Below, one piece after another: positions 2,566 through 24,577 of a stretch of DNA of 48,304 nt (positions within the stretch are counted from its first letter, which is position 1; the number at the start of each line of letters is the position of its first letter). The notes beneath the pieces are model-generated. The model was not told where the DNA came from. It made no database searches and was given only the letters and a program-made list of their open reading frames with translations. This DNA is from Planktothrix serta PCC 8927 (lineage in GTDB: Bacteria > Cyanobacteriota > Cyanobacteriia > Cyanobacteriales > Microcoleaceae), in NCBI RefSeq assembly GCF_900010725.2, contig NZ_LR734877.1, positions 574,130 through 622,433 on the forward strand, given 5' to 3'. A program made the position numbers and the translations under genes.

Positions 2566-2604
2566 CTCTATTCCTGAACGAGAGTGTTTTAAATATTTTA
2601 GATG

Positions 2605-2630: not shown

Positions 2631-2704
2631 AGGTGTCGGGTTTCAGGTGTTAATTATTTTCTTCTCTCCCCCTGCTCCCGGTGCTCCCCCTACTCTCCCT
2701 GCCG

Positions 2705-5730: not shown

Positions 5731-5734
5731 TTTC

Positions 5735-5810
5735 CACAAACCGGGTTTTTTTCAAACTTTGGGTTTTCCCAATTTTATGTTGAAAAACTCGGTTTTTTAT
5801 TGCGATCGCT
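5735..5810. repeat. Copies of the AAACCGGGTTT-type dispersed motif
   Basis: The spacer after the protease holds AAACCGGGTTT and a diverged partner AAAACTCGGTTTT, followed by a HIP1 site. It belongs to the same family as the inverted repeats at 7008-7053 and 8016-8079. It may double as a terminator between the two converging genes. Confidence 0.5.
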
Positions 5811-5813
5811 TTT

Positions 5814-6200
5814 TTAAGGATTTAAACCCAGACTTAACCGGACTGCTTGTCGGACTTCCTGACAAAAATTTAAGGCTTCACGCGCTGTATCTTTATCAGC
5901 AGAAGCACCGGGATAACGATAAGCAACTGCAAACAGAGTTAATGCTAAAAGTTTGAGGCGAAACCCATCGTAACTTGGTTCGACAGGTAAAAGCAAATCC
6001 AATAAAACGGTCAAATTATGGGTTTTACTAAAAGTAATTCCTGCTTCTTGCAAACGAGCTTTCAAATATTTCTCAACACACTGTTGAGCGTGAAAACAGG
6101 CTGCATCATAGTTCGGAGATTTCCTCGCTCGTAATTCCCTTAAAGCGGTAGTAAAATCTCCCTCTGCTTTATCAACCCATTCAATGGTTAGGGGATTCAT
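5814..6200 (-). CDS. HEPN domain protein of an MNT/HEPN pair
   Basis: A 128-residue all-helical HEPN protein. The family pattern is seen in DAACFHAQQCVEKYLKA, SKTHNLTVLLDLL and the late VAYRYPG. In this class the HEPN protein is either a ribonuclease toxin or the partner and substrate of the nucleotidyltransferase. The RNase motif of HepT-type toxins (Arg-x4-6-His) is not evident here, so nuclease activity is uncertain. Its start overlaps the last 20 bases of the upstream nucleotidyltransferase gene, which indicates translational coupling and a two-gene module. Cytoplasmic. Confidence 0.88.
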   Translation of the reverse strand: MNPLTIEWVDKAEGDFTTALRELRARKSPNYDAACFHAQQCVEKYLKARLQEAGITFSKTHNLTVLLDLLLPVEPSYDGFRLKLLALTLFAVAYRYPGASADKDTAREALNFCQEVRQAVRLSLGLNP

Positions 6201-6501
6201 AAATCACCTTTCCTTTTTCAATAATTTCTTTGATAAAAAAATCATTCCAAGCCAGTCTTTGCTTGATCTCTACAGGAGTTCTAACTAACAAATCTATAGA
6301 AAAATCGGGCTTAATTTTATTTAAAATTTCCCAACTTTTCCGAAAACTATTCCCTTCATAAGGCAAAATTACTAGCAAATCAACATCGGAATCATTTTGA
6401 GGGTTTCCATAGGCATAGGAGCCAAATAAAATTATTTTATCGGGCTGAAATTCCTTGGCAATATTTTGGCTTAATTGCATAATTTTAGAGCTTTCGATCA
6501 T
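6181..6501 (-). CDS. MNT-type nucleotidyltransferase (antitoxin side of the HEPN pair)
   Basis: A 106-residue minimal nucleotidyltransferase of the pol beta superfamily. The signature GS-x10-DxD is complete: Gly27-Ser28, then Asp39 and Asp41 in NDSDVDLLV. In characterised MNT/HEPN modules this enzyme adds AMP groups to the HEPN toxin and so silences it. The gene overlaps the HEPN gene by 20 bases. The ATG at 6501 is used; Met8 is an alternative start. The third catalytic acidic residue is probably Asp74 in FSIDLLVRT. Confidence 0.9.
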   Translation of the reverse strand: MIESSKIMQLSQNIAKEFQPDKIILFGSYAYGNPQNDSDVDLLVILPYEGNSFRKSWEILNKIKPDFSIDLLVRTPVEIKQRLAWNDFFIKEIIEKGKVIYESPNH

Positions 6502-6683
6502 TTTTCTCGACCCTAATCCTTGTGAGTAGAAATTGACTTGCTAATTGATATTATATCAGGTCAAGATGATGAGATTTACAGATAACTGTTATAAACCCGC
6601 CCGCCCTTTTCAGTGATTGTACCTTGTCAAAAACCTGGTTTTTAACAATAAAATCTTATGTTTGAAAAAAGAATAGGTAATCA

Positions 6684-6863
6684 ATGTTTATGTTGCTGAT
6701 TATACTCAACTCATGTTTATACTGAGTAATAACTGCTCCTGTTACTGTACCAGTTGCGGGAGTTCTGGCAGTAGGAGGTATATTTGCAATAGGAGCAGTT
6801 GGAGTTTATCAATTTTTAAATAATCAAGAAACACCTAATAACGAAAGACGAAACGAAGCCTAA
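6684..6863 (+). pseudogene. Small membrane-protein frame interrupted by one TGA
   Basis: Starting at ATG 6684 the frame codes for a short hydrophobic stretch (MFMLLIILNS), meets TGA at 6723-6725, then continues for 45 codons to TAA at 6861. The second part has a clear membrane segment (VAGVLAVGGIFAIGAVGVY) and a polar tail (NNQETPNNERRNEA). No ATG starts the second part. I read it as a decayed or truncated gene; readthrough is possible but unsupported. I do not recognise the family. Confidence 0.3.
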
Positions 6864-7007
6864 ATCTTAAAATCAAGTCATTTTTCAGAAGATGGTTTTC
6901 TTCAAAATCTCGGTTTTCATAGGGTTTTGTTGGGAAAATCAGCTTTTACGTTTCTACCTATGAAGATAGGCTATGTTTTGATGAGTGTTTTGTGTGCACA
7001 GGTGTCC

Positions 7008-7053
7008 AGAAACCGGGTTTTTCCTAATAGTTTTTTTCAAAAACCCGGTTTCT
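7008..7053. repeat. Inverted repeat of the AGAAACCGGGTTT family
   Basis: AGAAACCGGGTTTTT at the left faces AAAAACCCGGTTTCT at the right across a T-rich loop, giving a stem of about 15 base pairs. A HIP1 site and a short TGTTCCC heptamer array (about 7067-7096) follow. Related copies lie at 5735-5810 and 8016-8079. It probably forms a hairpin in RNA of either strand. Confidence 0.8.
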
Positions 7054-7066
7054 CAGAGCGATCGCT

Positions 7067-7096
7067 ATTTCCCTGTTCCCTGTTCCCTATTCCCTT
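7067..7096. repeat. Heptamer array (TGTTCCC type)
   Basis: Three to four copies of TTCCCTG/TTCCCTA run up to the 3' end of nadC. Same family as the arrays at 8476, 9671, 13972, 31566, 34108 and 39107. Confidence 0.8.
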
Positions 7097-7114
7097 TCGC
7101 GTAGCGCTATAGTT

Positions 7115-7966
7115 TCACATTTTCATGCTCAAGTCTAACCAATTTGAACGGGTAATAGGAGCACTCGTTGAAATATAATCAACCCCAGTTTCTGCAACGG
7201 AACGAATTGTTTCTAAGGTAATATTACCCGATGCTTCTATTTTAATACGGGAGTTATATTGACGAATCAGATTAACGGCTTCCCGCATTAACCCTAAAGA
7301 CATATTATCCAACATAATAATATCCGCTTGATGTTCTAAGGCTATTTTTACCTGTTCTAAGGTTTCGGTTTCTACTTCAATTGTTAGAGGATAAGGCATT
7401 GTTTCTCGAATTTTTGTAATCGCTTCTGCAATACCTCCGGCCGCTACAATATGGTTATCTTTAATCATAATCGCATCATCTAATCCCAGGCGATGATTTT
7501 TTGCACCCCCGACTTGAATGGCGTATTTTTCTAATAATCTCAATCCCGGTGTTGTTTTGCGGGTATCAACTAATTGACAGGGTAAATCTGCGATCGCTTC
7601 TACATATTTTCGCGTTGCTGTCGCTATTCCACTCAGTCGCATCGCTAAATTTAACGCGACTCTTTCCCCCATTAATAACGCTTCTAAACTCCCTTCTAAA
7701 ATAGCTATTTTTGTGCCTTTTTCACAATATTCTCCCTCCTGAATTAAAGGAGTAAATTTCATCTGATGATCTAAAAGTTGAAACACTCTCGCCGCTACGG
7801 ATAATCCAGCAATAACACCCTTTTCTTTAACAATCCAATCCGCAGATTTTATCTGATTTCCGATTAATAATCCGGCGGTCGAGCGATCGCCTCGTCCAAT
7901 ATCTTCTAATAACCATTGTTGCAATAGCGGATCTAAAATAATCCCAGGAGGTAATATCGCCTTCAT
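7115..7966 (-). CDS. nadC: Nicotinate-nucleotide pyrophosphorylase (carboxylating)
   Basis: Quinolinate phosphoribosyltransferase: quinolinate plus PRPP gives nicotinate mononucleotide, CO2 and pyrophosphate, the step that enters NAD synthesis. Family landmarks are LLEDIGRGDRST near the N-terminus, VDTRKTTPGLR (substrate-binding Arg136 and Lys137), KNHRLGLDDAIMIKDNH (His158, Arg159, Lys169), IEVETETL, IIMLDNM and ASGNITLETI. The 283-residue length matches the family. The ATG at 7966 is preferred because homologues begin close to LPPGIILDPLL; a TTG at 7990 with an AGGA site just upstream is an alternative that adds 8 residues. No nadA or nadB is in the window. Confidence 0.95.
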   Translation of the reverse strand: MKAILPPGIILDPLLQQWLLEDIGRGDRSTAGLLIGNQIKSADWIVKEKGVIAGLSVAARVFQLLDHQMKFTPLIQEGEYCEKGTKIAILEGSLEALLMGERVALNLAMRLSGIATATRKYVEAIADLPCQLVDTRKTTPGLRLLEKYAIQVGGAKNHRLGLDDAIMIKDNHIVAAGGIAEAITKIRETMPYPLTIEVETETLEQVKIALEHQADIIMLDNMSLGLMREAVNLIRQYNSRIKIEASGNITLETIRSVAETGVDYISTSAPITRSNWLDLSMKM

Positions 7967-8015
7967 ATTCAGTCTATTTAGGAATTTCAAAACATCCTAT
8001 AATACCGAGGGTCAA

Positions 8016-8079
8016 AGAAACCGGGTTTCTGTATAAACCCTGATTTCCCATCCCAAATCTTGAAAGAAACCCGGTTTCT
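8016..8079. repeat. Inverted repeat of the AGAAACCGGGTTTCT family
   Basis: AGAAACCGGGTTTCT at 8016-8030 (itself almost a palindrome) and AGAAACCCGGTTTCT at 8065-8079 flank a 34-base centre. It sits between the nadC start and the 5S rRNA terminator. Same family as 7008-7053. Confidence 0.8.
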
Positions 8080-8095
8080 AGGTATGGTAAAATAC

Positions 8096-8134
8096 TAAAG
8101 CCCCCTTCCGATTTATCACTGGAAGAAGGCTTTA
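8096..8134 (-). terminator. Rho-independent terminator of the 5S rRNA gene
   Basis: On the minus strand the sequence forms a stem AAAGCC-TTCTTCC against GGAAGGGGGCTTT with one bulge and an 11-base loop. It begins about 13 bases after the end of the 5S rRNA. The run of T after it is short, but stem strength and position are convincing. Confidence 0.75.
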
Positions 8135-8146
8135 GTTAGATATTAA

Positions 8147-8263
8147 CCTGGCATCGAGCTATTTTCCCAGGCGGCTACCCGCCAAGTATCTTCGCCGTAT
8201 CAGCGTTTCACAGCCGAGTTCGAGATGGATCGGAGTGGTTCCACTGAGCCATAGGCACCAGGA
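8147..8263 (-). rRNA. rrf: 5S ribosomal RNA, solitary
   Basis: The minus strand reads TCCTGGTGCC at the 5' end and GATGCCAGG at the 3' end, which pair as helix I. Between them are the strongly conserved GGAACCACTCCGAT and CATCTCGAACTCGGC of loops B and C, and the GCCTGGGAAAATAG segment of loop E/helix IV. Length is about 117 bases, as expected. No 23S, 16S or tRNA lies upstream: the next gene on this strand is a pentapeptide protein only 280 bases away, so this is not the tail of a normal rRNA operon. Its own promoter (8341-8369) and terminator (8096-8134) suggest independent expression. Confidence 0.96.
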
Positions 8264-8340
8264 AAGCTTTATAAACTTTTCGGTGATTTTTGAGGAGTTC
8301 GCGGTTTTGTTGTTCGCTTGTTTTCCTCTCACAATTTACT

Positions 8341-8369
8341 AATATACTCGCTTTTTCTGGGAATGTCAA
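8341..8369 (-). promoter_or_regulatory. Strong housekeeping promoter for the 5S rRNA
   Basis: On the minus strand a perfect -35 box TTGACA (8364-8369) is followed after exactly 17 bases by TATATT (8341-8346). Transcription would start near 8335, about 70 bases before the mature 5S rRNA, leaving a leader that needs processing. The boxes and spacing are seen directly; use in the cell is inferred. Confidence 0.75.
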
Positions 8370-8475
8370 CCCCTGTTCCAAAAAAACTTTTTGTTCCTCT
8401 CATCCGGCTTGCTGAGGGGGTTTGGGGATTTAAGGGGGTCAAAGAGTCGTTCAAATATAGTGCTATGCACTCTTA

Positions 8476-8508
8476 GAACAGGGAATAGGGAATAGGGAAT
8501 AGGGAATG
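8476..8508. repeat. Heptamer array (GGGAATA type)
   Basis: Four consecutive units of GGGAACA/GGGAATA downstream of the pentapeptide gene. The rest of 8370-8541 holds no gene that I can see. Confidence 0.8.
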
Positions 8509-8541
8509 TCTGGATAGAGATTTTTAATTAAATCAATGCCA

Positions 8542-9369
8542 TTAACGAGAAAGAAAAGCACTTAAACTATTACCTGAATTATCATCAAAAATCGCACCTC
8601 TACTAATGAGATCATCCTTAACTTCTGCTGAAATCCCTAGGATATATCTAAATTGAGTTTTTTTCACTACGACTTGACTGAGGTTAGCTAGGCTTAAATT
8701 AGTCAAACTCAAATTAGCAAAACTCAAATTAGCAAAACTCAAATTAGCTTGAAATAGGTTAGCTTTCGTTAAAACTGCTCGGCTTAAATTGCTTTCTATC
8801 AGATTAGTTTTAGTTAGGTTAGATTGGGTTAAATTTGCTCCCATTAAGTTAGCTTGGTTCAAGTTTGCTTTACTTAAATAGACTTGATTGAGGTCGGCTC
8901 CTAGGAGATTAGTATTGCCTAAATAAGCCCCACTGAGATAAGCTTTCGTTAAGTCCGTTCCACTAAGATTTGTATGACTGAGGTAGGCTTCACTCAAGTC
9001 CGCTTCTCTAAGATTTGCTCCCCTTAAATTAGTCCCTACTAGATTAGAATAACTGAGGTTAGCTTCTCTTAAATCGGCATTTTCTAGGTTCGCTCCCATT
9101 AAGTTAACACCGCTCAAATTAGCTTGACTTAAGTTAGCTTGACTCAGGTTAGCTTCAGTGAGGTTAACGCGGCTTAGGTTGGCTTGACTGAGGTTAGCTT
9201 CTCTTAAGTCAGCTTTTGTTAAATCAATCCCCTGCAAATCAGCCCCAATTAAATCCTTTTTGGGGTCAATTCCGATCAGTTTTGCTAATTCTAATAAATT
9301 ATCAGTATTGGCATTAACAAGGGTTTTAATATAGCTTTTGACTTGCTCTCTTAACTCTTTATCATTCAT
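8542..9369 (-). CDS. Pentapeptide repeat protein
   Basis: A 275-residue protein. After a 40-residue N-terminal helical segment (MNDKELREQVKSYIKTL...) it consists, to about residue 250, of pentapeptide repeats A(D/N)LxX such as LREANLSQANLSRVNL. These fold as a right-handed four-sided beta-helix. The C-terminal 25 residues (ISAEVKDDLISRGAIFDD) match the usual cap of cyanobacterial members. No signal peptide or membrane helix, so probably cytoplasmic. The function of most such proteins is unknown; DNA-mimic, gyrase-protection and scaffold roles exist in the family, but nothing here selects one. Confidence 0.92.
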   Translation of the reverse strand: MNDKELREQVKSYIKTLVNANTDNLLELAKLIGIDPKKDLIGADLQGIDLTKADLREANLSQANLSRVNLTEANLSQANLSQANLSGVNLMGANLENADLREANLSYSNLVGTNLRGANLREADLSEAYLSHTNLSGTDLTKAYLSGAYLGNTNLLGADLNQVYLSKANLNQANLMGANLTQSNLTKTNLIESNLSRAVLTKANLFQANLSFANLSFANLSLTNLSLANLSQVVVKKTQFRYILGISAEVKDDLISRGAIFDDNSGNSLSAFLSR

Positions 9370-9767
9370 TGTAAAATCTCCACTTCACTTGAATAAGGTT
9401 TAATTTTAGTGAGGATTCAATGGGCTGTTGATCCTGGTAATCATACCCAAAAAAATCAGGAGTTAGAAGATAGGAAAGAGAAGCGATGTTAAGTCTCAGC
9501 CTGAAATTCCAAGCTGTTCTATGAGAGTATTGAGATTGTATGTCCAGTTGATCCTTAGTCGTTTTGTTTATGTTCGTATTATTTTCAATATAACATTATT
9601 TTCACTCATATATGGGACAGTCAGCTTTGAATATTAAATGATATGAAATCTAATTATAGTTGCTACAGATGGGAAGGGAACAGGGAACAGGGAACAGGGA
9701 ACAGGGAACAGGGAACAGGGAATAGGGAACAGGGAACAGGAGGGAAAATTGTTAATTTGAGAAAATC
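9370..9767. other. Spacer with a half MITE-like element and a heptamer array
   Basis: No gene is visible. From about 9637 there is ATATGAAATC..., then GTTGCTACAGATGGGAAGGG, the left end of the same inverted-repeat element found complete at 13938-14090. It runs straight into a long GGGAACA array (9671-9742) that ends close to the murQ stop codon. The matching right end is absent, so this copy is partial. The remainder (9370-9636) is AT-rich and unremarkable. Confidence 0.6.
9671..9742. repeat. Heptamer array (GGGAACA), about ten units
   Basis: About ten consecutive seven-base units, nearly all GGGAACA with one GGGAATA. It is the longest uninterrupted array of this unit in the window and lies 25 bases beyond the murQ stop. 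Confidence 0.9.
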
Positions 9768-10682
9768 CTAATTTGGAAAACTGAATACCGCCTGTCTTAA
9801 TTGTCCTTGATGCTGATCTAATAATTCTTGACCCGATACCGCATCTAATCCTGTCCACTGCATTAATAACGCTAACTTGACCGATTTTCCACTTTTTTCT
9901 AATAAAATTTCGGCAGCTTCTCGATTAATTTCGGTCAAATCCATTAATATTCTTAAGGCTCGATCCTGTAATTTTTTATTCGTCACCGCCACATCAATCA
10001 TGCGATTTCCATAAACCTTTCCTAACTTCACCATCACACTTGTTGAGAGAATATTTAACGCCATTTTCGTCACTGTTCCGGCTTTTAATCGAGTCGAACC
10101 TGCTAATATTTCTGGCCCCACTAATAAGCGAATATCCACATCCGCTTCAAATTCCACCTGTTCTACCGGAACACAGGCAATAAACACCGTTTTCGCCCCC
10201 CGTTGACGGGCGGCTTGTAACGCTCCCTGCACATAGGGTGTTGTCCCTCCGGCCGTAATCCCAACGATCACATCTAAATAGGTAATTTGGCGCAAAGCGA
10301 TCGCCATCGCCCCATCTTCTGCCCGATCTTCCAAATCTTCAGAACTGCGAACCAAGGCACCCGCTCCCCCCGCAATAATGCCCTGGACTAATTCTGGAGG
10401 GGTACAGAAGGTGGGGGGACATTCCGCCGCATCCAAAACCCCCAGACGGCCACTGGTGCCCGCCCCAACATAAAATAGTCGCCCTCCCTGATGCAATGCA
10501 ACAGTGGCGAGATCAATCGCTTGGGCCAACGATTCACGGGAACGGGCGATGGCCAGTAACGTTTGTACATCTTCCCGGTTGAACAAATCCACTAATTCTA
10601 AAGAACTGAGTTGATCCAAGTTCTGACTATTAGCGTTGATTTGTTCGGTTAATAAATGTCCCCGCGACTCCCACTGTTCCAT
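9768..10682 (-). CDS. murQ: N-acetylmuramic acid 6-phosphate etherase
   Basis: A 304-residue SIS-domain enzyme that cleaves MurNAc-6-phosphate to GlcNAc-6-phosphate and D-lactate in peptidoglycan recycling. The N-terminal signature TEQINANSQNLDQLS, the phosphosugar-binding AGTSGRLGVLDAAECPPT and ITAGGTTPYVQGAL, and AGSTRLKAGTVTKMALN are all present. The C-terminal helical part ends KLALLMQWTGLDA. A frame upstream to 10754 exists but overlaps the preceding gene; the ATG at 10682 gives the family length. The DUF3110 gene ends 37 bases upstream on the same strand, so the two are probably co-transcribed. No anmK or transport gene is next to it. Confidence 0.96.
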   Translation of the reverse strand: MEQWESRGHLLTEQINANSQNLDQLSSLELVDLFNREDVQTLLAIARSRESLAQAIDLATVALHQGGRLFYVGAGTSGRLGVLDAAECPPTFCTPPELVQGIIAGGAGALVRSSEDLEDRAEDGAMAIALRQITYLDVIVGITAGGTTPYVQGALQAARQRGAKTVFIACVPVEQVEFEADVDIRLLVGPEILAGSTRLKAGTVTKMALNILSTSVMVKLGKVYGNRMIDVAVTNKKLQDRALRILMDLTEINREAAEILLEKSGKSVKLALLMQWTGLDAVSGQELLDQHQGQLRQAVFSFPN

Positions 10683-10719
10683 ATTTAACTTAACCTTGGA
10701 TTGTCCTAGTTTGACCCAT

Positions 10720-11094
10720 TCATAATAACCCTTCCAGTCGTTTGCGAATATCATCCAGTTCAGGAGAGCCTAAATTAGACTCTACCTCCACCTGTTTCTC
10801 CGCCTCAACTTGCCAGTCGGTTTCATCGACATTATGTTCCGGGGGAATGGCCAACTCTCCAGATGCCACTAATTCCCAGTCATAGTCAACACTCTGGCAA
10901 AATTCTTTAATTTCTTCTTCGTCCAGGGCTTCAACCTTAGCAGTCGGGAAATCTTGAGCCTCCAGAAGCACGCCAAAGCGGGTGGCATCATCTTCGTCTT
11001 CAAACATTAACACTTTATTGCGATCGCCCATCTGAATCGTATGAATCCCCTCATTTTCTGTTCCGGCATTGAACAGCAGCACGTAAACTCGCAT
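10720..11094 (-). CDS. DUF3110 family protein
   Basis: A 124-residue acidic protein. The first 75 residues match the DUF3110 domain of cyanobacteria and plants (MRVYVLLFNAGTENEGIHTI, VLMFEDEDDATRFGVLLEAQDF). The C-terminal third is very acidic and ends with a short helix (LDDIRKRLEGLL). Function unknown. No signal peptide. It lies 37 bases upstream of murQ on the same strand. ATG start at 11094. Confidence 0.9.
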   Translation of the reverse strand: MRVYVLLFNAGTENEGIHTIQMGDRNKVLMFEDEDDATRFGVLLEAQDFPTAKVEALDEEEIKEFCQSVDYDWELVASGELAIPPEHNVDETDWQVEAEKQVEVESNLGSPELDDIRKRLEGLL

Positions 11095-11240
11095 AGCTTT
11101 CCATGAAGTTTTGATAACTATTGCTTTACTATCTTACTGCCAAAACGTCAAATTTTTTCCTGGGGTGGCCTGATTGTTTTGGGGAACAGTCTTCTGTAAG
11201 ATGAAATTGCGAGGAAAACTTCTATTTTTTAAAACAGTCA

Positions 11241-12371
11241 ATGCAGCTTGTTGATTTATCTCGTCAATCCTTAGCCCTACAACGGTTTATTCAAGATCAA
11301 ACCTTATTTCCTGCTACCTTTAATTCCGCTATTTGTGATCAGGATGAAATGTATTTATTTGCTTTAGCGAATCATCACACACCGGATCGGGCTTGTATTC
11401 GTTATTATTTTAATGGTCGTCGAATTTTAGATACTGTCCGACAGGTTTTAAACTGGCATTTTGGGGATTTGAGTCAAATTTCATCTTTCTTAGATTTTGC
11501 CAGTGGTTATGGACGTTTTACTCGGTTTTTAGTTCAAGATATTCCTCCTGAAAATATCTGGATTTCTGATATTTATGCTCAGGCGGTACAATTTCAAAGG
11601 GAACAGTTTGGCGTTCAGGGAATTGTTTCTACGACCTATCCACAGGATTATCCGATTCAACAATCCTTTGATTGTATTTTAGCCTGTTCTTTTTTTAGTC
11701 ATCTTCCTGAAGCGACATTTTTAACCTGGTTACAAAAACTCTATGCTTTATTATCTCCTCAAGGAATATTAATGTTTAGTGTTCATGATCGAGAACTATT
11801 ACCGCCCCATTTAGCCATTTCAGCCTCCGATCTTTTATTTGTTCCCAATAGTGAAAGTCAAACCTTAGATGTGAATGAATATGGCACAACTTATGTCGGT
11901 GAAACCTTTGTTGCTAATTGTTTAAAAACCATAAGTCAGGGAGAAGCAATTTATTCTCGAATTCCTAAAGGAATTTGTCGCTATCAAGATTTATATTTAG
12001 TCACCCGCAACCCTCAAAAACCCTTATCTTCTTTACAATTTAATCACCATCCCCAAGGAAAAATCGAACAGTGTGAATTAACCGAAGCCGGAAACCTTTT
12101 AATCAAAGGATGGGTATCAGAAATCAATCCTAATAGCCAATTAAAAGAAATTTTAGTCTTCATTAATGGAACATTAATAAAAAATTGTTTATTATCTTCT
12201 CAACCCTCAGCTTCTGACTCTCAATGGTCTTGGTCTTATCAACTTCCCCTGGCCAAAATTTCTCAGCAAGACATCATTCTGATTAAAGCCGTCAATACTC
12301 AAGGCTTAGAATGGGTTTTTGAAACAACGACGGTAGAAACTTTAATTCAAACCTATACGGTCTTTTTATAA
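11241..12371 (+). CDS. SAM-dependent methyltransferase with extra C-terminal beta domain
   Basis: A 376-residue protein. Motif I of class I methyltransferases is FLDFASGYGRFTRFL at about residues 83-97, followed by the acidic end of beta-2 (IWISDIYAQAV), then FDCILACSFFSHLPE and LSPQGILMFSVHD, which cover the remaining Rossmann strands. Residues 270-376 form a separate domain (IKGWVSEINPNSQLKEILVFINGTLI), similar to a beta-rich module found in cyanobacterial glycosyl- and methyltransferases. The substrate cannot be told from sequence; sugars, surface glycans and natural products are all possible. Soluble, ATG start. It stands alone. Confidence 0.85.
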   Translation: MQLVDLSRQSLALQRFIQDQTLFPATFNSAICDQDEMYLFALANHHTPDRACIRYYFNGRRILDTVRQVLNWHFGDLSQISSFLDFASGYGRFTRFLVQDIPPENIWISDIYAQAVQFQREQFGVQGIVSTTYPQDYPIQQSFDCILACSFFSHLPEATFLTWLQKLYALLSPQGILMFSVHDRELLPPHLAISASDLLFVPNSESQTLDVNEYGTTYVGETFVANCLKTISQGEAIYSRIPKGICRYQDLYLVTRNPQKPLSSLQFNHHPQGKIEQCELTEAGNLLIKGWVSEINPNSQLKEILVFINGTLIKNCLLSSQPSASDSQWSWSYQLPLAKISQQDIILIKAVNTQGLEWVFETTTVETLIQTYTVFL

Positions 12372-12515
12372 ATCCTCTTTTTTAATATATTTTATCAAAA
12401 GTTAAAAACTATTAATACATAGTTTACGAATTATCTCTGAAAGAGAATAAAAAAACCTCCTGATTCTATACTCAAATCAGAGTGTACTACTTCAGATTCT
12501 TTACCCTTAAGTACA

Positions 12516-13310
12516 ATGTCAAATTTGCAACCAGTATCTAACCCCGTACCTAGAGAAACCCAAATCTCTACCCTACAATTAATTATGTTTGATAGTGAAG
12601 TCGATACCCTGATTGGAGGAGAGGGAGCAGATTCGTTCTTTTTGCGTCAAAATGGAGATCAAATTCCTCCCTTAACTCCGGCTGCGTCTCTGATTGGTAC
12701 TAACCAAGACGATACTTTAGAAGGAACGAGCAATCGTGATGTTATCCCCGGTCGGGATGGAAATGACATGATTTCCAGTTTCCTGGGAGATGATTTTATT
12801 GAAGGACAAAATGGCAATGATATTCTGTTTTCCGGTCAAGGAAATGATTTAGTCATCGGAAGTTCAGGAGTTGATACCCTGTTTGGTGATATCGGAGTTG
12901 ATACCGCTTATGGTGGGTCAGAAGAGGATATCGTGTTTGGAAATAACGACGCAGATACTCTGTTTGGAGATGGCGGGGATGATAGTATTTATGGCGGTCA
13001 AGGAAATGATAGTCTGATTGGCGGGACTGGAAACGATTTACTATTAGGCGACCGGGGAAATGATACCCTTTTAGGTATTTCTAGTGATAGTTTAGGATAT
13101 ACCATGATTACAGATTTTAATGGAGATGAAGATAAGTTACTATTAGCAGGAACTCCAGACTTGTATGCGATTGATAGTTCCCCTGCAAATGTCCCTGAAG
13201 GGGTTGCTATTTTCAAGATTAATACAACAAATAACTCAAAACAATTATTAGCAATTGTTCAAGGGGATATAGCATCGACATTTGATAGTAATCAATATGT
13301 CTTTATTTAA
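12516..13310 (+). CDS. RTX-type calcium-binding repeat protein
   Basis: A 264-residue secreted-type protein with RTX nonapeptides (GGxGxDxux) at about residues 65-190: GRDGNDMI, GQNGNDILF, GQGNDLVIG, GDGGDDSIYGGQGNDSLIGG, GDRGNDTLLG. These bind Ca2+ and fold as a beta-roll outside the cell. The last 70 residues (MITDFNGDEDKLLLAG ... QYVFI) match the C-terminal module that often carries the type I secretion signal. No Sec signal peptide, as expected for that route. No hlyB/hlyD-type exporter is nearby. No enzymatic domain is visible, so it may be a surface or matrix protein. Confidence 0.88.
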   Translation: MSNLQPVSNPVPRETQISTLQLIMFDSEVDTLIGGEGADSFFLRQNGDQIPPLTPAASLIGTNQDDTLEGTSNRDVIPGRDGNDMISSFLGDDFIEGQNGNDILFSGQGNDLVIGSSGVDTLFGDIGVDTAYGGSEEDIVFGNNDADTLFGDGGDDSIYGGQGNDSLIGGTGNDLLLGDRGNDTLLGISSDSLGYTMITDFNGDEDKLLLAGTPDLYAIDSSPANVPEGVAIFKINTTNNSKQLLAIVQGDIASTFDSNQYVFI

Positions 13311-13665
13311 TTCTTTTTAGAACTTGAAACCACCCCTTGCGACCAATAAAATCTTTAATCAAATCCTAGGGGTGGATTCTCCAAACAAACAGAAATTATT
13401 CCAGAAGCTATCCCAACAATAAACTGGGAAAAATTGTAAACAAATGTAAACTATTTTAAAGAAACTCCCCGGTTTGTAAATAAATTATTAAAGATTTCAT
13501 AAAATCCTCTAAAAATTCTCTAAGTTTGTCCTTAAATTAATTATAGAACTATTACAATACAAATACTCACGGGATCACGGTGTTTGTTGATTTTGTACTG
13601 ACATCTCACCGGATTTTAAGGGAGCATCAAAGTTTTTGTCCGGCGTTAAAAACAATGAAATCTTT
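13311..13665. other. AT-rich spacer with one long-loop dyad
   Basis: No gene is visible. CCACCCCT (about 13330) pairs with AGGGGTGG (about 13368) across a loop of over 30 bases, which may end the RTX transcript, though no T run follows. The rest is AT-rich. Confidence 0.4.
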
Positions 13666-13938
13666 ATGAAAAAAATAACAGAAACAAAAACTAATTTACC
13701 GACTAGAAATATACTTTCTTTCCTGAGTTCAATTGATGGTGTATTAGAAAATTGGGGTTATAAACGAATTGGCATCCCTTGGGAACAAGTGGAATATAAT
13801 CCCCGATTTCATCAACCCGATGTTAAGGATATTCAACCCGGAGAAACGGTTTATGTTCGCTTTGTTGGATATCGAGATGGGGATAGAATTTGTTGTCCAG
13901 CAAAAGTTAGTCGAAAATTACCCAACCCATTAAAATAA
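13666..13938 (+). CDS. GrpE-like C-terminal domain protein, short
   Basis: A 90-residue protein whose second half matches the C-terminal beta domain of cyanobacterial GrpE-related nucleotide exchange factors: VEYNPRFHQPD, QPGETVYVRFVGYRDGD and PAKVSRKLP. GrpE releases ADP from DnaK, but full proteins have a long helical dimerisation region before this domain, which is missing. The start at 13636 would be TTG, so the ATG at 13666 is used. The stop codon TAA is formed where the MITE-like element at 13938-14090 begins, so the present C-terminus may have been created by insertion. It may be a free-standing domain or a gene remnant. Confidence 0.55.
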   Translation: MKKITETKTNLPTRNILSFLSSIDGVLENWGYKRIGIPWEQVEYNPRFHQPDVKDIQPGETVYVRFVGYRDGDRICCPAKVSRKLPNPLK

Positions 13939-14090
13939 TATGAAATCCTTAAATTAGTGCTACAGATGGCAAGGGAACAGGGAACAGGGAACAGGGAACA
14001 GGGGGAAAAGAAAATAGGGAATAGGGGATAGAAAAAATTGATTAGCCACCCGATCAAGTATTTGTAGCAAACATTTAAGAATTTCATATA
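13938..14090. mobile_element. MITE-like inverted-repeat element with heptamer core
   Basis: The left end reads ATATGAAATCCTTAAATTAG then GTGCTACAGATGG. The right end, on the opposite strand, reads ATATGAAATTCTTAAATG then TTTGCTACAAA. These are imperfect terminal inverted repeats of about 30 bases. The 150-base interior contains a GGGAACA array and no coding sequence. Relatives are at about 9637 (left end only), 42585 (left end only) and 48151-48272 (both ends). It lies between two convergent genes and its first base is part of the GrpE-like stop codon. A transposase supplying it in trans is not in the window. Confidence 0.65.
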
Positions 14091-14096
14091 ACAATG

Positions 14097-14984
14097 TCAA
14101 CGTCGCACTTTAAAATAAGGATTAGGGTCTTCTGCAATCCATCCCAAATCTGAATTATAACGAATTTCAAAATGCAGATGGGATACTTTACTATCGGGTT
14201 GTCCCGTTGTTCCTACTGTCCCTAATACATCCCCTAAATTAACCGATTGACCCACTTTTACCCCAATATTATCCAGATGAGCAAAACGGGTTTGTTTTCC
14301 CGACCCATGATTAACTACCACTAATTTTCCATAGCCTTCCCGTTCTCCCGCAAAGGCAATTTTTCCGGCTCCAACGGATAAAACTGGAGTTCCCACTGTT
14401 GCAATTAAATCTAAACCACTGTGGAACACAACCCGACCCAAAACCGGATTTAATTGCCAACCATAACCCATTTGTATCGTTGTCGGTTGCGGTAATGGAT
14501 AACCCGATAAGACGAATAAAGCGGGAATCGGGGGGCCTTTTGGCGACCAATTCACACCGGGTAAAAATAATACCGTTGGTTGCGTTTGACAGCCATTGAT
14601 CTCAAAAACCACGTCAGGACGGGCCTGATAAGCTTTAGCCACTTCCTGCCACTGACGACCGGGGGGAACTTCCACCTGAATCCCATTATAGGGCGGAATC
14701 AGAATTTCTTGTCCGATCGCTACGGGTTGCCGTTGTAAAATCGGATTCATCCCTAGTAAGGTTGCCGGAATTAAATTATATTGACGGGCGATACTATCTA
14801 CCGTTTCCCCAGCTGCAATGCGATGACGTTTTAAACGAGAGAGTACCGGGGTTGGACAAACCGCTTCAGCTTCTGGTTGAACTTCTTGTGATTTTATTGA
14901 AGGTAGGGGACTCGCTAACATCCCGATTAGACTTCCCATCAACCCCAACAAGACTATTCCTAAACGTTGAAACCTCATGATCAT
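14097..14984 (-). CDS. M23 family metallopeptidase with LysM domain
   Basis: A 295-residue cell wall hydrolase. A signal peptide or N-terminal anchor occupies residues 1-32. A LysM domain, which binds peptidoglycan, covers about 53-98 (HRIAAGETVDSIARQYN), with a weaker second LysM-like stretch to 142. The M23 peptidase domain is C-terminal: zinc ligands His188 and Asp192 in HSGLDL, and His269/His271 in SHLHFE. The expected activity is endopeptidase on peptide cross-links in the periplasm, with a role in growth or division. All ligands are present, so it is probably active. ATG at 14984, with a second ATG two codons later. Confidence 0.93.
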   Translation of the reverse strand: MIMRFQRLGIVLLGLMGSLIGMLASPLPSIKSQEVQPEAEAVCPTPVLSRLKRHRIAAGETVDSIARQYNLIPATLLGMNPILQRQPVAIGQEILIPPYNGIQVEVPPGRQWQEVAKAYQARPDVVFEINGCQTQPTVLFLPGVNWSPKGPPIPALFVLSGYPLPQPTTIQMGYGWQLNPVLGRVVFHSGLDLIATVGTPVLSVGAGKIAFAGEREGYGKLVVVNHGSGKQTRFAHLDNIGVKVGQSVNLGDVLGTVGTTGQPDSKVSHLHFEIRYNSDLGWIAEDPNPYFKVRR

Positions 14985-15224
14985 TTATCAAAATTTAACT
15001 GAAAACGAGCGGATCACCCACCGATCGCCAAGTCATTGATTAGCAATGGGTTTGGGCGAATATCTGAATCAACAAAGTGGCTCACAGATCACAAACTCAA
15101 GGTTCAAGATGTGCTAAGTAAAGTTAAAGAGTCGTGATTCAAGACTTTTGATCTTAAGATTAGAGGACAGAGAACCTATTCCGGTAGACCCTCAACAGAA
15201 TTGTATTTCCAGACGGCAGCACAA

Positions 15225-19565: not shown

Positions 19566-22427
19566 ATGTTGCAACGAATTATTCGGTTTTTTAAACGATT
19601 ACTGCAACGACTCCTGAACCGACAACCACCGCCACCGCCACCCTCAAACCCTGTGCGTCCTAACCGTAGCGATACGGAATATGAGGGGTTATTTTTGCAA
19701 TTGTTGGAGATCGTGCATCAAGGTGCAAGTCGGGGTGAGGTGAAGGGATGGTTAATGGGAAATCAACTGAAACCGGGGGAGTTTGTCGTCTGGTTGGAAA
19801 GGTTTGGACAACGCATCGCAGATAACCCAACTCCCCAGGAAGAATTAGCAAAGCGGATGGTTTTATTGGGGAATTTGGAGATCGGAGAATTAGGAATTGT
19901 TGCGGGGAGAATTGGGAGAGAAATTTTAGAGGGAATTAATTCAAAATCAGATGATAATTCCTGGTTTGATCAGGGTTGTCAGCAAGTTGAAAAAGGTAAT
20001 TTTGAAGACGCACTTTTCTGTTTTGAAAAGGTTATTCAACTAGAACCAGATAATCATGTGGCTTGGAGCAACCGAGGCGCTGCTTTATCTTTATTCGGAA
20101 GGTTAGAGGAAGCGATTGATTCTTATGACAAGGCTTTAGAATTTAAACCGGACGATCACTATGTCTGGTACAACCGAGGCATTGCTTTAGATAATTTAGG
20201 AAGGTTAGAAGAAGCGATTAATTCCTTTGACAAGGCTTTAGAATTTAAACCGGACGATCACGAAGCTTGGAACAGCCGAGGCGGTGCTTTAAATAATTTA
20301 GGAAGGTTTGAGGAAGCGATTAATTCTTATGACAAGACTTTAGAATTTAAACCGGACTTACACCAAGCCTGGGGCAGCCGAGGCAATGCTTTAGCTTATT
20401 TAGGAAGGTTAGAGGAAGCGATTAATTCTTATGACAAGGCTTTAAAATTTAAACCGGACGATCACAAAGCCTGGTGCAACCGAGGCAGTGCTTTATATAA
20501 TTTAGGAAGGTTAGAGGAAGCGATTAATTCTTATGACAAGACTTTAGAATTTAAACCGGACTTTCACTATGCCTGGAGCAACCGAGGCGGTACTGCTGGA
20601 AAATCTTCCCATCCAAATCAATTCTTAACTTCTTTCAGTCAAATTGTTGCTAAACATCCTGAACTAAATCAACGAGGTTATCAGGGAAAAATAACTTGTT
20701 ATGAAATCGGATTAACTTATGTTAAAAAGGAGAAACAGCCGGAAGGTTGGGGACGGTTGCATTATTATATAGGTCGGGAGCACTATTCTGAAGGTCGGAG
20801 ACAAAAGGTAGGTGTTTCTGATTACTATGTTAAAGCGATTAACAGTTATAATACTGCCCTAACGGTTTTGACAGTAAACAATTTTCTTGAAAGCTATTTA
20901 GAGGTTTTACGAGATTATATTAAAGTCTTATGGGAGTTAGGAGAAACTGAAAGAGTAAAGGTATTACAACAAGAAGCAACGGATGGGTTGCGTCGGTTGA
21001 TTGAAGAAACGCCTTCTAATTATATAAAACAACAACTGTCCCTAAAGTTTATTGGGTTTGATCAATTAACTGTTGATTTAGCGGTGAAATCGGGGGATTT
21101 TATTAACGGGTTGGAGTTAGCAGAAGAAGGGAAAAATACCTGTTTGCGTTGGATGTTGTTAGGGTGGAGTGATAAGATTCCCAAGTTTAGTTATGGGGAA
21201 ATGCGACAATTTTTAACCGCAGCTTTTGGGGAGAAAACGGCTATTGTCTATTGGCATCTTAGCCCCATTGCTTTAACAACCTTTATTTTAAAACCGGATA
21301 ACCCCGAATTAGAAGTGATTCAACAACCGAGTATTCAAACTTTAAGTGATTTTGAAGATTGGTTAACAGATTGGAATAAAAGTTATCAAGAATATCGAGA
21401 AAAAACACCCGATAAAGACCGTTTATCGCGTGACTGGCGACAAAACATGATTCCTAACCTGAGAGCGTTAAAAGAAATTCTCAGAATTGATGAAATTATC
21501 GAAAAACTGGATAGCATTAATCATGTTATTTTAGTTCCCCATCGAGATTTACACTATTTACCCCTAGAATCTCTATTTTTATTAAGTGATTTTGCTCCTC
21601 CTCCCTTCAGTTTAACCCGTTTACCGAGTTTAAAAATCGGTCAAAACTTACAATCAACTCCTCGAATTACTGCCAATCAAACTTTACTAAATATTGAAAA
21701 TCCCCCTAGTATTATTCAAGCGGGAGAAGGAAATAAAAAACGGTTAATGCCTTTACCTGTGGCGGATATTGAATCGGAATTTGTTAGTCTCAGATTTGAT
21801 CATCCCACTCGATTAGCAGAAGATGAAACAACCTTAGAAAAAGTTAGCCAAGGGTTAAAACAAAAATACCAAGTTTTGCATTTTGCGGGTCATGGTTATT
21901 ATAACACAAATGATCCTAAATCATCGATGTTATTTTTAAAAGATAGCGATCGCTTAACCCTAGAAGAAATTATTCAACCCGATTATTGTCTCAATTCCTA
22001 TCAATTAGTTTGTTTAGCCGCCTGTGAAACGGCCGTTGCTGGGAAACAAACCATTTTGAGTGAATATGTGGGACTCGCAAGCGGGTTTTTAATGCAGCAA
22101 GTTGACCATGTTCTAGGGACATTATGGGTCGTTGAATCCGTCGCTTGTTCGTTATTTGTGATAGAATTTTATTATCGTTGGCAGGTTCTGAAGTTATCGA
22201 AAACCGATGCTTTTACCCAAACCCAAACCTGGTTAAAAACAGCAACCCATCAGGAGTTACAAGACTGGTGTGAAGCGAGAATAGCGGAGTTACCCCCGGA
22301 AAAAGGTTTATTAGGAAAACGGTTTAAAATCAGTGTCGATGAACTTGCTATAATAGAACAAAATCCACCTTTACAGCATCCCTACTATTGGGCTGCATTT
22401 ATTTTAAGCGGCTATGAAAGATTATGA
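19566..22427 (+). CDS. TPR-CHAT caspase-like protease
   Basis: A 953-residue protein. Order of parts: basic amphipathic N-terminus with a Pro run (1-30); a helical domain (about 37-123) common at the start of cyanobacterial TPR-CHAT proteins, perhaps an adaptor; six TPR units (about 131-341), several nearly identical; a helical linker (350-640); and a CHAT domain (about 645-953). The caspase-like dyad is present: His776 in LHFAGHGYYN and Cys820 in CLAACETAV. CHAT domains are proteases (separase/caspase clan) used in bacterial conflict systems, including ones that activate gasdermins or respond to type III-E CRISPR. The stop overlaps the start of the next gene by 14 bases. The target and trigger are unknown. 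ATG with AGGGGA upstream. Confidence 0.93.
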   Translation: MLQRIIRFFKRLLQRLLNRQPPPPPPSNPVRPNRSDTEYEGLFLQLLEIVHQGASRGEVKGWLMGNQLKPGEFVVWLERFGQRIADNPTPQEELAKRMVLLGNLEIGELGIVAGRIGREILEGINSKSDDNSWFDQGCQQVEKGNFEDALFCFEKVIQLEPDNHVAWSNRGAALSLFGRLEEAIDSYDKALEFKPDDHYVWYNRGIALDNLGRLEEAINSFDKALEFKPDDHEAWNSRGGALNNLGRFEEAINSYDKTLEFKPDLHQAWGSRGNALAYLGRLEEAINSYDKALKFKPDDHKAWCNRGSALYNLGRLEEAINSYDKTLEFKPDFHYAWSNRGGTAGKSSHPNQFLTSFSQIVAKHPELNQRGYQGKITCYEIGLTYVKKEKQPEGWGRLHYYIGREHYSEGRRQKVGVSDYYVKAINSYNTALTVLTVNNFLESYLEVLRDYIKVLWELGETERVKVLQQEATDGLRRLIEETPSNYIKQQLSLKFIGFDQLTVDLAVKSGDFINGLELAEEGKNTCLRWMLLGWSDKIPKFSYGEMRQFLTAAFGEKTAIVYWHLSPIALTTFILKPDNPELEVIQQPSIQTLSDFEDWLTDWNKSYQEYREKTPDKDRLSRDWRQNMIPNLRALKEILRIDEIIEKLDSINHVILVPHRDLHYLPLESLFLLSDFAPPPFSLTRLPSLKIGQNLQSTPRITANQTLLNIENPPSIIQAGEGNKKRLMPLPVADIESEFVSLRFDHPTRLAEDETTLEKVSQGLKQKYQVLHFAGHGYYNTNDPKSSMLFLKDSDRLTLEEIIQPDYCLNSYQLVCLAACETAVAGKQTILSEYVGLASGFLMQQVDHVLGTLWVVESVACSLFVIEFYYRWQVLKLSKTDAFTQTQTWLKTATHQELQDWCEARIAELPPEKGLLGKRFKISVDELAIIEQNPPLQHPYYWAAFILSGYERL
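20058..20590 (+). repeat. Tandem 102-base repeats encoding TPR units
   Basis: Five to six head-to-tail copies of a 102-base unit (34 codons) code for the TPR array; stretches such as GAGGAAGCGATTAATTCTTA and TTTAGAATTTAAACCGGAC recur almost unchanged at DNA level. Identity at silent positions means recent duplication or gene conversion, so repeat number probably varies between strains. Confidence 0.9.
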
Positions 22428-22854
22428 AGTTGAAATGTTAACGGCGTTTTTTGCCGCCTTAACTCAACAGTCTAAACCGTTACCTGCGGATTTCGTTGTT
22501 CAGTTAAATCAAATTAGTGAATCTTTAGATTTGAATCAATTAGATGAGTTGATTACTAATTCCATTTTGGGAAAAAATTATGACACTATCTATAACTTGT
22601 TAGTGTCTAAATCGAGTTTTCGCAATTTAGGATTAGATGTAATTCCGAATCATAAATCTGAGGTTGAAAACACAACTTGTACAGAAGTTGAGAATTTAGC
22701 GAGTCGTATTCCCGAACAAAATTTAGATGAAATTCTAACTCAGATTGAAACCCGACTTCATCAAGAAACATCTACATCTTTAATCAAAAGAATTTGCGGA
22801 AATCCTAATCCAAGTGAAGCCGCAAAAACCATATTCTTAACCTCTGGCTTTTAG
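22414..22854 (+). CDS. Small unknown protein coupled to the CHAT gene
   Basis: A 146-residue protein whose ATG lies inside the last codons of the CHAT gene (14-base overlap), so translation is probably coupled. The first 65 residues are helical (MKDYEVEMLTAFFAALTQ, LNQISESLDLNQLDELI), then a polar linker with ENTTCTEVEN, then another helical part. No signal peptide, membrane helix or known motif. I do not recognise the family. Its place suggests a regulator, adaptor or inhibitor of the protease; this is inference from gene order only. Confidence 0.75.
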   Translation: MKDYEVEMLTAFFAALTQQSKPLPADFVVQLNQISESLDLNQLDELITNSILGKNYDTIYNLLVSKSSFRNLGLDVIPNHKSEVENTTCTEVENLASRIPEQNLDEILTQIETRLHQETSTSLIKRICGNPNPSEAAKTIFLTSGF

Positions 22855-23200
22855 TAGGGTGCGTAAGCGAAGCGCACGCACCACCCCACAATTTATAATC
22901 AATAACCATATTAATTTACAATAAATTGTTGGGTGTTTAATATTTTTATTAGGTGCGTGTTTTATTAGGGGTTTTGATGCGTGTGGTTTTTTCCGGGGTT
23001 GAGGTGTAAATTTTTTTGGAGGTTGATGTGTGGATTTTTTCAGGTTGAGGTTTGGTGCGTGCACTTTGCTTTTTAGGGTTTGGTGCGTGCGCTTTGCTTA
23101 CGCACCCTACGGTTAGGGGGAGAGTTAATTATGGTTAATCAGTTGGGGTTTGGTGCGTGCGCTTCGCTTACGCACCCTACGGTTAGGGAGAGAGTTAATT
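22855..23200. repeat. Spacer of GGTGCGTGCGC repeats, with a duplicated start region
   Basis: The spacer carries copies of a dyad repeat built on GGTGCGTGCGCTT and AAGCGCACGCACC (22857-22886, 23049, 23080, 23150). Two 64-base copies with a 70-base period, 23076-23139 and 23146-23209, both contain the ribosome site and the words GTTAATTATGGTT. The first copy opens a 25-codon frame from ATG 23131 that stops at TGA 23206-23208, eight bases into the following gene. The same dyad repeat occurs near 34444. Confidence 0.8.
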
Positions 23201-24577
23201 ATGGTTGATAATGAGCAGTTAATTTATCCGACTGTGGATTTATTTCTGTATGATTTAGGGGAAGGTTTAGGTGAATTAGACACAAAAATTGAGCAAAATA
23301 GAAGGGATTTTTTCACCCGAATTTATGGAGAGAAACTTGATACAGAAATTTTAAACAAAATTAAAAGTGTTGAGGAAAAAGCAGGAGATTATTTACCCTT
23401 ACTGTCTCATCTCCCTGGTTGTATACAACCGTTAAAACAGGGGGATGGTTATTATTCTCCGGTTAAATTAGGAGATACCTATGGGTTACAAATAGACTGT
23501 TCTGGAGAAATAGAAAAGGACGCTAAAAAGAGATTTTCTCCTAAACCTTTAATTAGTTTAGCAGAAAGCAAAACCCTGATTAAAAATCAACTCAATTCCT
23601 GTGAAGGAACAATTGGACAAAGTTGGTTTGTCTGGGGTTTACTAACCTCTCCTGAACAAAATTCTTTGGAAACAGCCCAAAAATGTTATCAACAAATTAA
23701 CTTATTTCCTGATGATAATTGGGAACGAGATTTACAACAAACAGGTGAATTTTTAGGAGCGCATTTTTATGAACTTTGGAAACCGCCATCCCATCAACAT
23801 CAAACTTGTGATTCTGTGCATTTAATCATTTGTTTATTTGATGCTCAACTCAATAATTCCTTGCCAGAGGTTTCAAAAAAAGTTGAACGGATTTATCCTC
23901 AACTGATGCAATTATTTCGCTATCGAAATAAGGTTATTTGGTCATATTGGCAAAGTCGTCAATTAAAAATTGAACTCAAAAAAGCCTATCCTATTATTCA
24001 AACAACGGTTAATAATCTACCGCAACAAGTTGATCAAACTCGGTTGAATTTGAACCAGTTACAGAAAGAATTAGCGGATATATTGAAAATATTATCAATT
24101 TATTCTAATCAATTAAGTAGTTTAGAGGAACAACAATCAACGATTAAAACGAATTTAAAGAATTATCAAAAACGAGTTGACGCTATTGCTGAATTAGACT
24201 TTAATTTCAATTCAGAAGCAACGCGAAAATTTTTAATGTTTTTTAGTGATTATGTTGAAGAAAAATATTTAGAACAAACTAAATCTGACTTAAGAAGTTT
24301 AAATAGTGGATTTAAGCTATTAGAAAATGCGATTAAAACGATAGAGGGAATTATTAGTATTGAACAAACAAAAAGCGATCGCAATCTCAATTTAACGATT
24401 GGTGTTGTTGGTACAGCATTAACCATGAGTGGCGTTACTGCGAGTGTTTTATCTGCCCAACCCGAACCTCCTAAATCTCATGGCGATTTTTCCTTTATGG
24501 CTTCTCCGACTTTTTTTATTAGTAGTTTACCCGTGTTAATTTCAGTGATAATTTTATTATATCGTTTTTTTCGATAA
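23201..24577 (+). CDS. Coiled-coil protein with two C-terminal membrane helices (CHAT-linked)
   Basis: A 458-residue protein. Residues 1-245 form a soluble domain that I do not recognise (PTVDLFLYDLGEGLG, IGQSWFVWGLL, LGAHFYELW). Residues about 255-390 are coiled coil (QVDQTRLNLNQLQKELADI, SLEEQQSTIKTNLKNY). Two membrane segments end the protein: about 397-418 (LTIGVVGTALTMSGVTASVL) and 436-455. This topology, helices and then a membrane hairpin, recalls CorA-like proteins found in conflict systems, but the CorA GMN motif is absent. The start at 23150 would be GTG inside a repeat; the ATG at 23201 with GGGAGAGAG upstream is chosen. It lies 346 bases after the CHAT-coupled gene on the same strand. 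A membrane effector role is inferred. Confidence 0.8.
   Translation: MVDNEQLIYPTVDLFLYDLGEGLGELDTKIEQNRRDFFTRIYGEKLDTEILNKIKSVEEKAGDYLPLLSHLPGCIQPLKQGDGYYSPVKLGDTYGLQIDCSGEIEKDAKKRFSPKPLISLAESKTLIKNQLNSCEGTIGQSWFVWGLLTSPEQNSLETAQKCYQQINLFPDDNWERDLQQTGEFLGAHFYELWKPPSHQHQTCDSVHLIICLFDAQLNNSLPEVSKKVERIYPQLMQLFRYRNKVIWSYWQSRQLKIELKKAYPIIQTTVNNLPQQVDQTRLNLNQLQKELADILKILSIYSNQLSSLEEQQSTIKTNLKNYQKRVDAIAELDFNFNSEATRKFLMFFSDYVEEKYLEQTKSDLRSLNSGFKLLENAIKTIEGIISIEQTKSDRNLNLTIGVVGTALTMSGVTASVLSAQPEPPKSHGDFSFMASPTFFISSLPVLISVIILLYRFFR

Follow-up and report, generated by a model that had tools for sequence, protein, structure and literature searches.

CATRA, described by Burroughs and Aravind in 2020, is reportedly composed of a TPR-containing caspase-type protease, a small protein (CATASP, PF20271), and a larger CATRA-N/C protein. 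The available excerpts of the literature cited here present CATRA as a caspase-dependent ternary system (PMC8195603), and describe the cutting of bacterial gasdermins by a neighboring caspase-like protease, with the Runella gasdermin cut after Leu and Gly at P1' (PMC9079055). According to further excerpts, the TPR-CHAT protease Csx29 cuts Csx30 at residues 427–429, in a flexible loop, and relieves the inhibition of a sigma factor (PMC10028731); the cyanobacterial orthocaspase MaOC1 cuts an antitoxin encoded beside it (PMC7935541); and type III CRISPR uses a CorA-family membrane effector that responds to the signal SAM-AMP (PMC12255297). Here, we present an analysis of a three-gene locus in a 48,304-nucleotide stretch of DNA from Planktothrix serta PCC 8927 (the window). 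The locus encodes a TPR-CHAT protease, a small protein (SMALL), and a predicted membrane protein (EFF).

A conserved unit with an exchangeable protease

The three genes form a real conserved unit, in agreement with the original prediction of a module that joins CHAT to a coupled small gene and a gene for a membrane protein. Relatives were collected with EFF alone as the query, disregarding its neighbors, and the best 80 of 91 were kept. There are 79 named loci, and our counts use the 77 with an EFF of at least 300 residues, leaving out L102, whose EFF is broken by a stop, and L169, whose EFF has 244 residues. SMALL was scored by an iterated profile in the 1.5 kb upstream of EFF, counting same-strand hits, and the protease as a CHAT or C14 gene within 8 kb upstream. 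SMALL is located directly upstream of EFF in 65 of the 77 loci. A caspase-clan protease (CHAT or C14) is encoded upstream in 67, at distances of 3.4 and 4.5 kb in two of them (L128 and L159). Seven of the ten protease-less loci have less than 5 kb of upstream contig, and L110, L127, and L131 have more. The association is more than chance, because the EFF-alone query mostly retrieved SMALL and a protease, and CHAT and C14 are scarce in the window's own genome (only 25 and 7 matches, respectively, in 6.27 Mb). Loci L031–L090, whose genomes partly overlap the named set, were kept apart from these counts.

The unit occurs in two layouts. TPR-CHAT, SMALL, and EFF follow one another on one strand in 41 named loci, and a divergent C14 gene stands beside SMALL and EFF in 26. 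The expectation that EFF homologs have CHAT neighbors is thus borne out in 41 of the 77 loci, but CHAT is not the fixed part, because C14 replaces it in 26 of the 77. SMALL and EFF are the constant core of the unit, and the protease is exchangeable. According to our own profiles, 20 of the 26 C14 loci contain nSTAND1, 15 of them also WD40; the other six have no nSTAND1 match, and three of these are C14 pieces of 121–201 residues. Pfam identifies nSTAND1-WD40 in L140 and L163, where WD40 models fill the listed best 25 Pfam matches, C14 is not among these, and the C14 call rests on our own profile, and C14-nSTAND1 in L034 and L035, where the protease shares the strand with SMALL and EFF. In L034 and L035, the caspase-nSTAND1 protein has a C-terminal YukD-like match, and the same strand carries an extra gene of 117–133 residues, SMALL, EFF, and an NAD synthetase gene. 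L045 contains one 1913-residue open reading frame (ORF; 9343–15084) in which C14, AAA/STAND, and TPR parts precede RelA/SpoT, TGS, and ACT domains, and which may be a caspase-stringent-response fusion or reflect a stop missing from the assembly. A 392-residue TPR protein in L123 (1590–2768), directly 5' of EFF, has an amphipathic N-terminus like those of the CHAT partners and no CHAT match.

The protein encoded in the window belongs to the Pfam family CHAT (PF12770; 116.1 bits against a cut-off of 24, E 2.8e-33), and the originally predicted intact dyad and six TPR units are present, with His at residue 776, Cys at residue 820, and six TPR_1 stretches. Among the CHATs of EFF loci, 37 of 40 aligned sequences keep both dyad residues, and 32 of the 34 C14 proteins aligned keep the His and the second Cys of their DCC motif. 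The Csx29 model (NCBIfam NF041237) scored 39.1 bits on the window CHAT, below its cut-off of 300. Residues 1–19 of this CHAT are cationic and amphipathic, with a hydrophobic moment of 0.91. Of the 28 CHAT ORFs with 600 residues or more, 20 have an 18-residue stretch with a moment of at least 0.6 near the start, in L094 at an inner Met; the stretch is weaker in L113, L114, and L149, different in L104 and L154, and masked in L100 and L118. In a like-for-like control, in which the stretch had to start at residue 1–6 of an ORF of at least 300 residues in both groups, 18 of 36 CHAT ORFs and 4 of 309 other ORFs had an amphipathic start. The amphipathic N-terminus is predicted from sequence to tether CHAT to the membrane.

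CHAT and SMALL ORFs share 14 bases in the window, and an overlap of the two is present in 29 of 39 CHAT loci, including the window; the distance between SMALL and EFF is at most 100 bases in 27 of the 39 (both counts with mechanical ORF starts). The 146-residue gene overlapping CHAT and the 458-residue membrane protein on the same strand were recovered as originally described, and EFF has two hydrophobic segments (Table 1). EFF starts at the ATG at 23201; the mechanical ORF call begins 51 bases 5' of it, at a TTG. The 346-base gap that separates SMALL from EFF (22855–23200) had been named as the weak point of the original prediction. Its repeat nature is confirmed: it holds dispersed repeat motifs with the core GTGCGTGCGCTT..CGCACCCTA, and a search of the own genome gives 74 matches, which are mostly short and include the gap itself. 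The nearest relatives, L051 and L052 (EFF 91% and 88% identical), have gaps of 65 and 172 bases. Since the repeats are dispersed in the own genome and the gaps of the relatives are shorter, the 346 bases are a local insertion and not a module border, and we rejected the gap as splitting the unit.

The trio is found in many filamentous cyanobacteria, and the closest named EFF relatives are from Planktothrix and 'Oscillatoriales' genomes. EFF matches occur in 74 of 98 genomes of a near sample and in 35 of 291 of an even phylum sample, for which queries and cut-offs differ. The non-cyanobacterial named hits are Parabeggiatoa (L143) and Thiomargarita (L159); in the Parabeggiatoa phylum, the one genome of 398 with an EFF match is Parabeggiatoa itself. 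EFF is mostly chromosomal, with several paralogs per genome. Twelve plasmid records contain EFF, annotated in every one as a hypothetical protein, and a Planktothrix agardhii plasmid encodes CHAT and hypothetical proteins of 130 and 471 residues separated by gaps of 7 and 1 bases. The own genome has seven counted EFF matches, five places of which are listed: C57 (the window), C62, and C51 have CHAT upstream on the same strand, C49 has a same-strand C14 gene about 4 kb upstream, and C65 has neither CHAT nor C14 among the listed matches. A second subtype (L032 and L047–L049, at own-genome place C62 and in Planktothrix kin) is composed of CHAT, a gene of 111–124 residues, and an EFF of 477–483 residues. 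Its small proteins (L032, L047, L048, and L049) are missed by the SMALL profile and share the pattern RIPGT...GNxPxPNQQ.

The motif of SMALL and the predicted architecture of EFF

The predicted structure of SMALL is helical, with a mean predicted local distance difference test (pLDDT) score of 76.6, a predicted template modeling score of 0.70, and a low-confidence linker at residues ~71–100. A fold search with this model gave no match, and PADLOC models had 0 hits in SMALL. A four-residue motif is located at a helix end just before the linker. In 38 aligned CHAT-partnered SMALLs (alignment A5), the columns of window residues 70–73 contain R in 37, S or N in 32, K in 31, and G in 35; the remaining residues of the third column are L in three, M in two, and R in two. 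The R column is the third most conserved of this set (37 rows). Of the 23 C14-partnered SMALLs, 22 have gaps in columns three and four. Thirty of the 38 CHAT-partnered SMALLs contain the string R.[KR]G, against an expectation of 0.47 of 37 from shuffling; one of the 23 C14-partnered SMALLs contains it, at another place in the protein. The string is also present in the CHAT-partnered L135, L148, and L154, and the EFFs of L135 and L154 are on the C14 side of the tree, which was built quickly and has long branches. L106 was rejected as a C14-partnered SMALL with the motif, as it has a CHAT gene upstream and is counted under CHAT; a C14-GUN4 gene and one more gene lie between CHAT and SMALL of this CHAT-type locus (2321–8871). 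We regard R-x-K/L-G of SMALL as a candidate cleavage or docking site. Because this partner-linked motif borders the disordered linker, SMALL is no weaker a candidate than EFF for the protease substrate.

The predicted structure of EFF (pLDDT 86) is composed of an α/β domain, a helical stalk, and a C-terminal transmembrane hairpin, and contains long helices. CorA proteins have the same order of parts: an α/β domain, a stalk, and a C-terminal hairpin of two transmembrane helices followed by a basic C-terminus. The model of EFF resembles CorA, a magnesium channel, in this architecture. Foldseek matched it to CorA with an E-value of 7.8e-5, and the best 25 PDB chains are all CorA-type channels, mostly of one protein. 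Taken together, the soluble domain (originally described as novel), coiled coil, and membrane hairpin of the original prediction resemble the architecture of CorA channels in this model. EFF has no clear family in Pfam, and its complete Pfam list contains no gasdermin-family model. No PADLOC model fits it well; the best (E 0.0019) matches inside the coiled coil. Alignment of CHAT-partnered and C14-partnered EFFs shows differences at 12 columns. The EFF of L155 (8995–10515) scores 24.3 bits for Gemini_V2, over the Pfam cut-off of 21.2, which is surely a chance hit in the helical part. In L061 and L102, a stop splits EFF into pieces of 132 and 272 residues.

Table 1 Features of the three-gene locus in the window.
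Feature	Position	Strand	Basis
TPR-CHAT protease gene, 953 residues	19566..22427	+	ORF; Pfam CHAT E 2.8e-33
CHAT N-terminal cationic amphipathic helix, residues 1–19, then proline run; predicted membrane tether	19566..19622	+	hydrophobic moment 0.91
TPR repeats, residues ~142–331, six TPR_1 stretches	19989..20558	+	Pfam
CHAT domain, residues 632–949	21459..22412	+	Pfam; dyad His776 (21891–21893), Cys820 (22023–22025)
SMALL gene, 146 residues: helical part 3–70, low-confidence linker ~71–100, helices 101–142	22414..22854	+	structure model
SMALL R70-N-L-G73, window form of the R-x-K/L-G motif	22621..22632	+	alignment
Repeat DNA separating SMALL from EFF	22855..23200		74 own-genome matches, self included
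EFF gene, 458 residues, predicted CorA-like membrane protein, ATG 23201	23201..24577	+	model, Foldseek, hydrophobicity
EFF α/β N-terminal domain, residues 1–220	23201..23860	+	model
EFF helical stalk, residues 221–397	23861..24391	+	model
EFF first hydrophobic segment, residues 398–418 (low model confidence)	24392..24454	+	model, hydrophobicity
EFF second hydrophobic segment, residues 430–458, basic residues at end	24488..24574	+	model, hydrophobicity

Proposed mechanism and alternatives

We propose, tentatively and with somewhat less than even confidence, that the unit is a conserved protease-gated membrane-effector module, in which the protease cuts SMALL and thereby frees a CorA-like EFF. 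SMALL would bind EFF and hold it silent. TPR-CHAT, with an amphipathic N-terminus as its predicted membrane tether, would be activated through its TPR or another sensor part; the C14-nSTAND1-WD40 protein would be the sensor-protease of the sister layout. CHAT would cut SMALL at the junction of the helical part and the disordered linker, where the motif R-x-(K/L/M/R)-G is observed, and the cut would free EFF. EFF, CorA-like in its predicted fold, may form oligomers, and the freed protein may pass ions or damage the inner membrane, so that the cell is stopped or killed. The outcome would most likely be abortive defense, and the trio would be a candidate cell-suicide or defense switch. The proposal is supported by the conservation of the unit, the overlapping CHAT and SMALL ORFs, the kept active-site residues of both proteases, the partner-linked motif next to the linker, the cuts reported for other caspase-clan proteases, the Foldseek match of EFF, and the CorA-family effector of type III CRISPR. 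It is also supported by the finding that one SMALL–EFF pair goes with proteases of two families, in two layouts that are unrelated.

Several observations weigh against this proposal. SMALL of the window reads R-N-L-G instead of R-x-K-G, and contains no R.[KR]G string. The motif tracks two large clades and may be a clade mark; since the tree needs only about two partner changes, the link between motif and partner is suggestive and not an independent-contrast proof. The second Planktothrix subtype has CHAT and EFF with another small gene that lacks the motif. Twelve named EFF loci have no SMALL match, and four of them (L110, L127, L128, and L131) have 6–9 kb of upstream DNA, so SMALL is not always needed; the SMALL-less EFFs of L125, L127, L128, L131, and L133 form one tree group, two at contig edges and three not. 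MaOC1, as the excerpted report has it, cuts its antitoxin when free and not within the toxin complex (PMC7935541). The likeness to CorA is also open to objection: the TM-scores of the best 25 matches are 0.16–0.29 of the query, mostly for chains of one protein, VIA-align scores unrelated helical bundles above CorA, and EFF has no CorA sequence match. The CorA superfamily carries a GMN motif at the end of its first transmembrane helix, and this motif is absent from the last 100 residues of all 70 EFFs. It is therefore conceivable, if somewhat unlikely, that the likeness reflects no more than a widespread arrangement of long helices, with EFF being another kind of membrane protein, such as a helical pore former. 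However, Foldseek ranks CorA, CmaX, MRS2, and ZntB, which we take to be of one superfamily, above almost everything else, and the domain order and basic C-terminus of EFF match the CorA topology.

EFF itself may be the protease substrate in a gasdermin-like manner, with a cut in a cytosolic loop opening the channel and SMALL docking EFF on the protease. The existence of EFFs without SMALL and the 12 columns at which CHAT- and C14-partnered EFFs differ are in line with this, as is the cutting of bacterial gasdermins by an adjacent caspase-like protease in the excerpted report (PMC9079055), but we consider it unlikely: the columns are scattered, none of them marks a loop site with a conserved basic residue or Leu-Gly, and the clear partner-linked motif is located in SMALL. 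The strong retention of a short linker-side motif suits docking too, and SMALL may be a scaffold or an activator that assembles protease, sensor, and EFF into a signaling complex, with R-x-K-G as the docking site, SMALL and EFF uncut, and the protease acting on other cell proteins. Bacterial conflict systems recurrently use effector-associated adaptor domains in the excerpts of two reports (PMC8195603, PMC10907252), yet such domains are usually folded and shared between proteins, and the loci read contain no SMALL–protease fusion; we consider a scaffold distinctly unlikely. A housekeeping or stress unit, for example for ion or envelope homeostasis with the level of a CorA-like transporter set by proteolysis, would fit the predicted fold, the mostly chromosomal location, and the conserved place in Planktothrix relatives. 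We find it very unlikely in view of the missing GMN (70 of 70 EFFs), the patchy presence (35/291 in the phylum sample, 74/98 in the near one), the several paralogs per genome, the copies in 12 plasmid records, and the C14-nSTAND1-WD40 and CHAT partners, which are typical of conflict systems.

The unit bears on what cyanobacterial caspase homologs cut and how they kill, as it names a specific neighbor pair for CHAT and C14 proteases alike, with a predicted four-residue cut site in SMALL and a membrane protein that would account for cell death once released. Protease-gated immunity would thereby gain a CorA-like effector. A wider reading, which we rate as less likely than not, is that of a bacterial counterpart of NLR-caspase-pore immunity assembled from new parts: a CorA-fold pore and a protease-specific 'fuse' would be plugged into a membrane-tethered TPR-CHAT or a C14-nSTAND1-WD40 protein, and a switch of protease would be a switch of cut motif. 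On this reading, EFF would be the first effector of CorA type to be set free by proteolysis, and a direct candidate for the protein that carries out caspase-dependent death of cyanobacterial cells.

Comparison with described systems

CATRA and the trio share three parts, a protease, a small protein, and a larger protein, insofar as the reported part list of CATRA goes. CATRA and CATASP are absent from the complete Pfam lists (E 1) of the window SMALL and EFF, CHAT likewise has no match to them, and no CATRA is among the 25 commonest Pfam families of 47 and 58 SMALL and EFF homologs. CATASP has 0 matches in 59 genomes of the window's class. Among 299 genomes from the phylum of Parabeggiatoa, PF20271 has 3 weak matches and 0 over the cut-off. 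It has 0 in four large actinobacterial plasmid records, and PF20270 has 0 in seven genomes or records; a family without matches anywhere is not thereby shown to be absent. The trio may be distantly linked to CATRA, or may have been mentioned earlier in the CATRA literature. This set of parts was not found in the literature searched, a search to which the original CATRA description did not belong.

The other systems resemble the trio in single aspects, as far as the excerpts of their reports go. In gasdermin loci, a caspase-like protease adjoins a membrane-acting effector, and L72-G73 of the window SMALL is like the Runella gasdermin cut with Leu at P1 and Gly at P1' (PMC9079055); EFF differs in its predicted CorA-like fold with two transmembrane helices, and the trio adds SMALL as a third gene. 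Craspase (type III-E; Csx29, Csx30, and CASP-sigma) uses a TPR-CHAT protease to cut a two-domain inhibitor and free an output protein, as we propose here (PMC10028731), but its output is a sigma factor, whereas that of the trio is a predicted membrane protein, and no Cas7-11 was seen adjoining the window genes. MaOC1 is a cyanobacterial caspase homolog adjoining a gene pair, a RelE/ParE-like toxin–antitoxin (PMC7935541), of other families than SMALL and EFF, the latter a predicted membrane protein. The CorA-family effector of type III CRISPR is a membrane immune protein (PMC12255297), which EFF resembles in predicted fold; it responds to SAM-AMP, whereas EFF has a protease as its partner, and EFF has no detectable CorA sequence match. 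A caspase-clan protease gating an effector is a kind of system already known from gasdermins, Craspase, MaOC1, and CATRA, and the set of parts described here is a variant of it.
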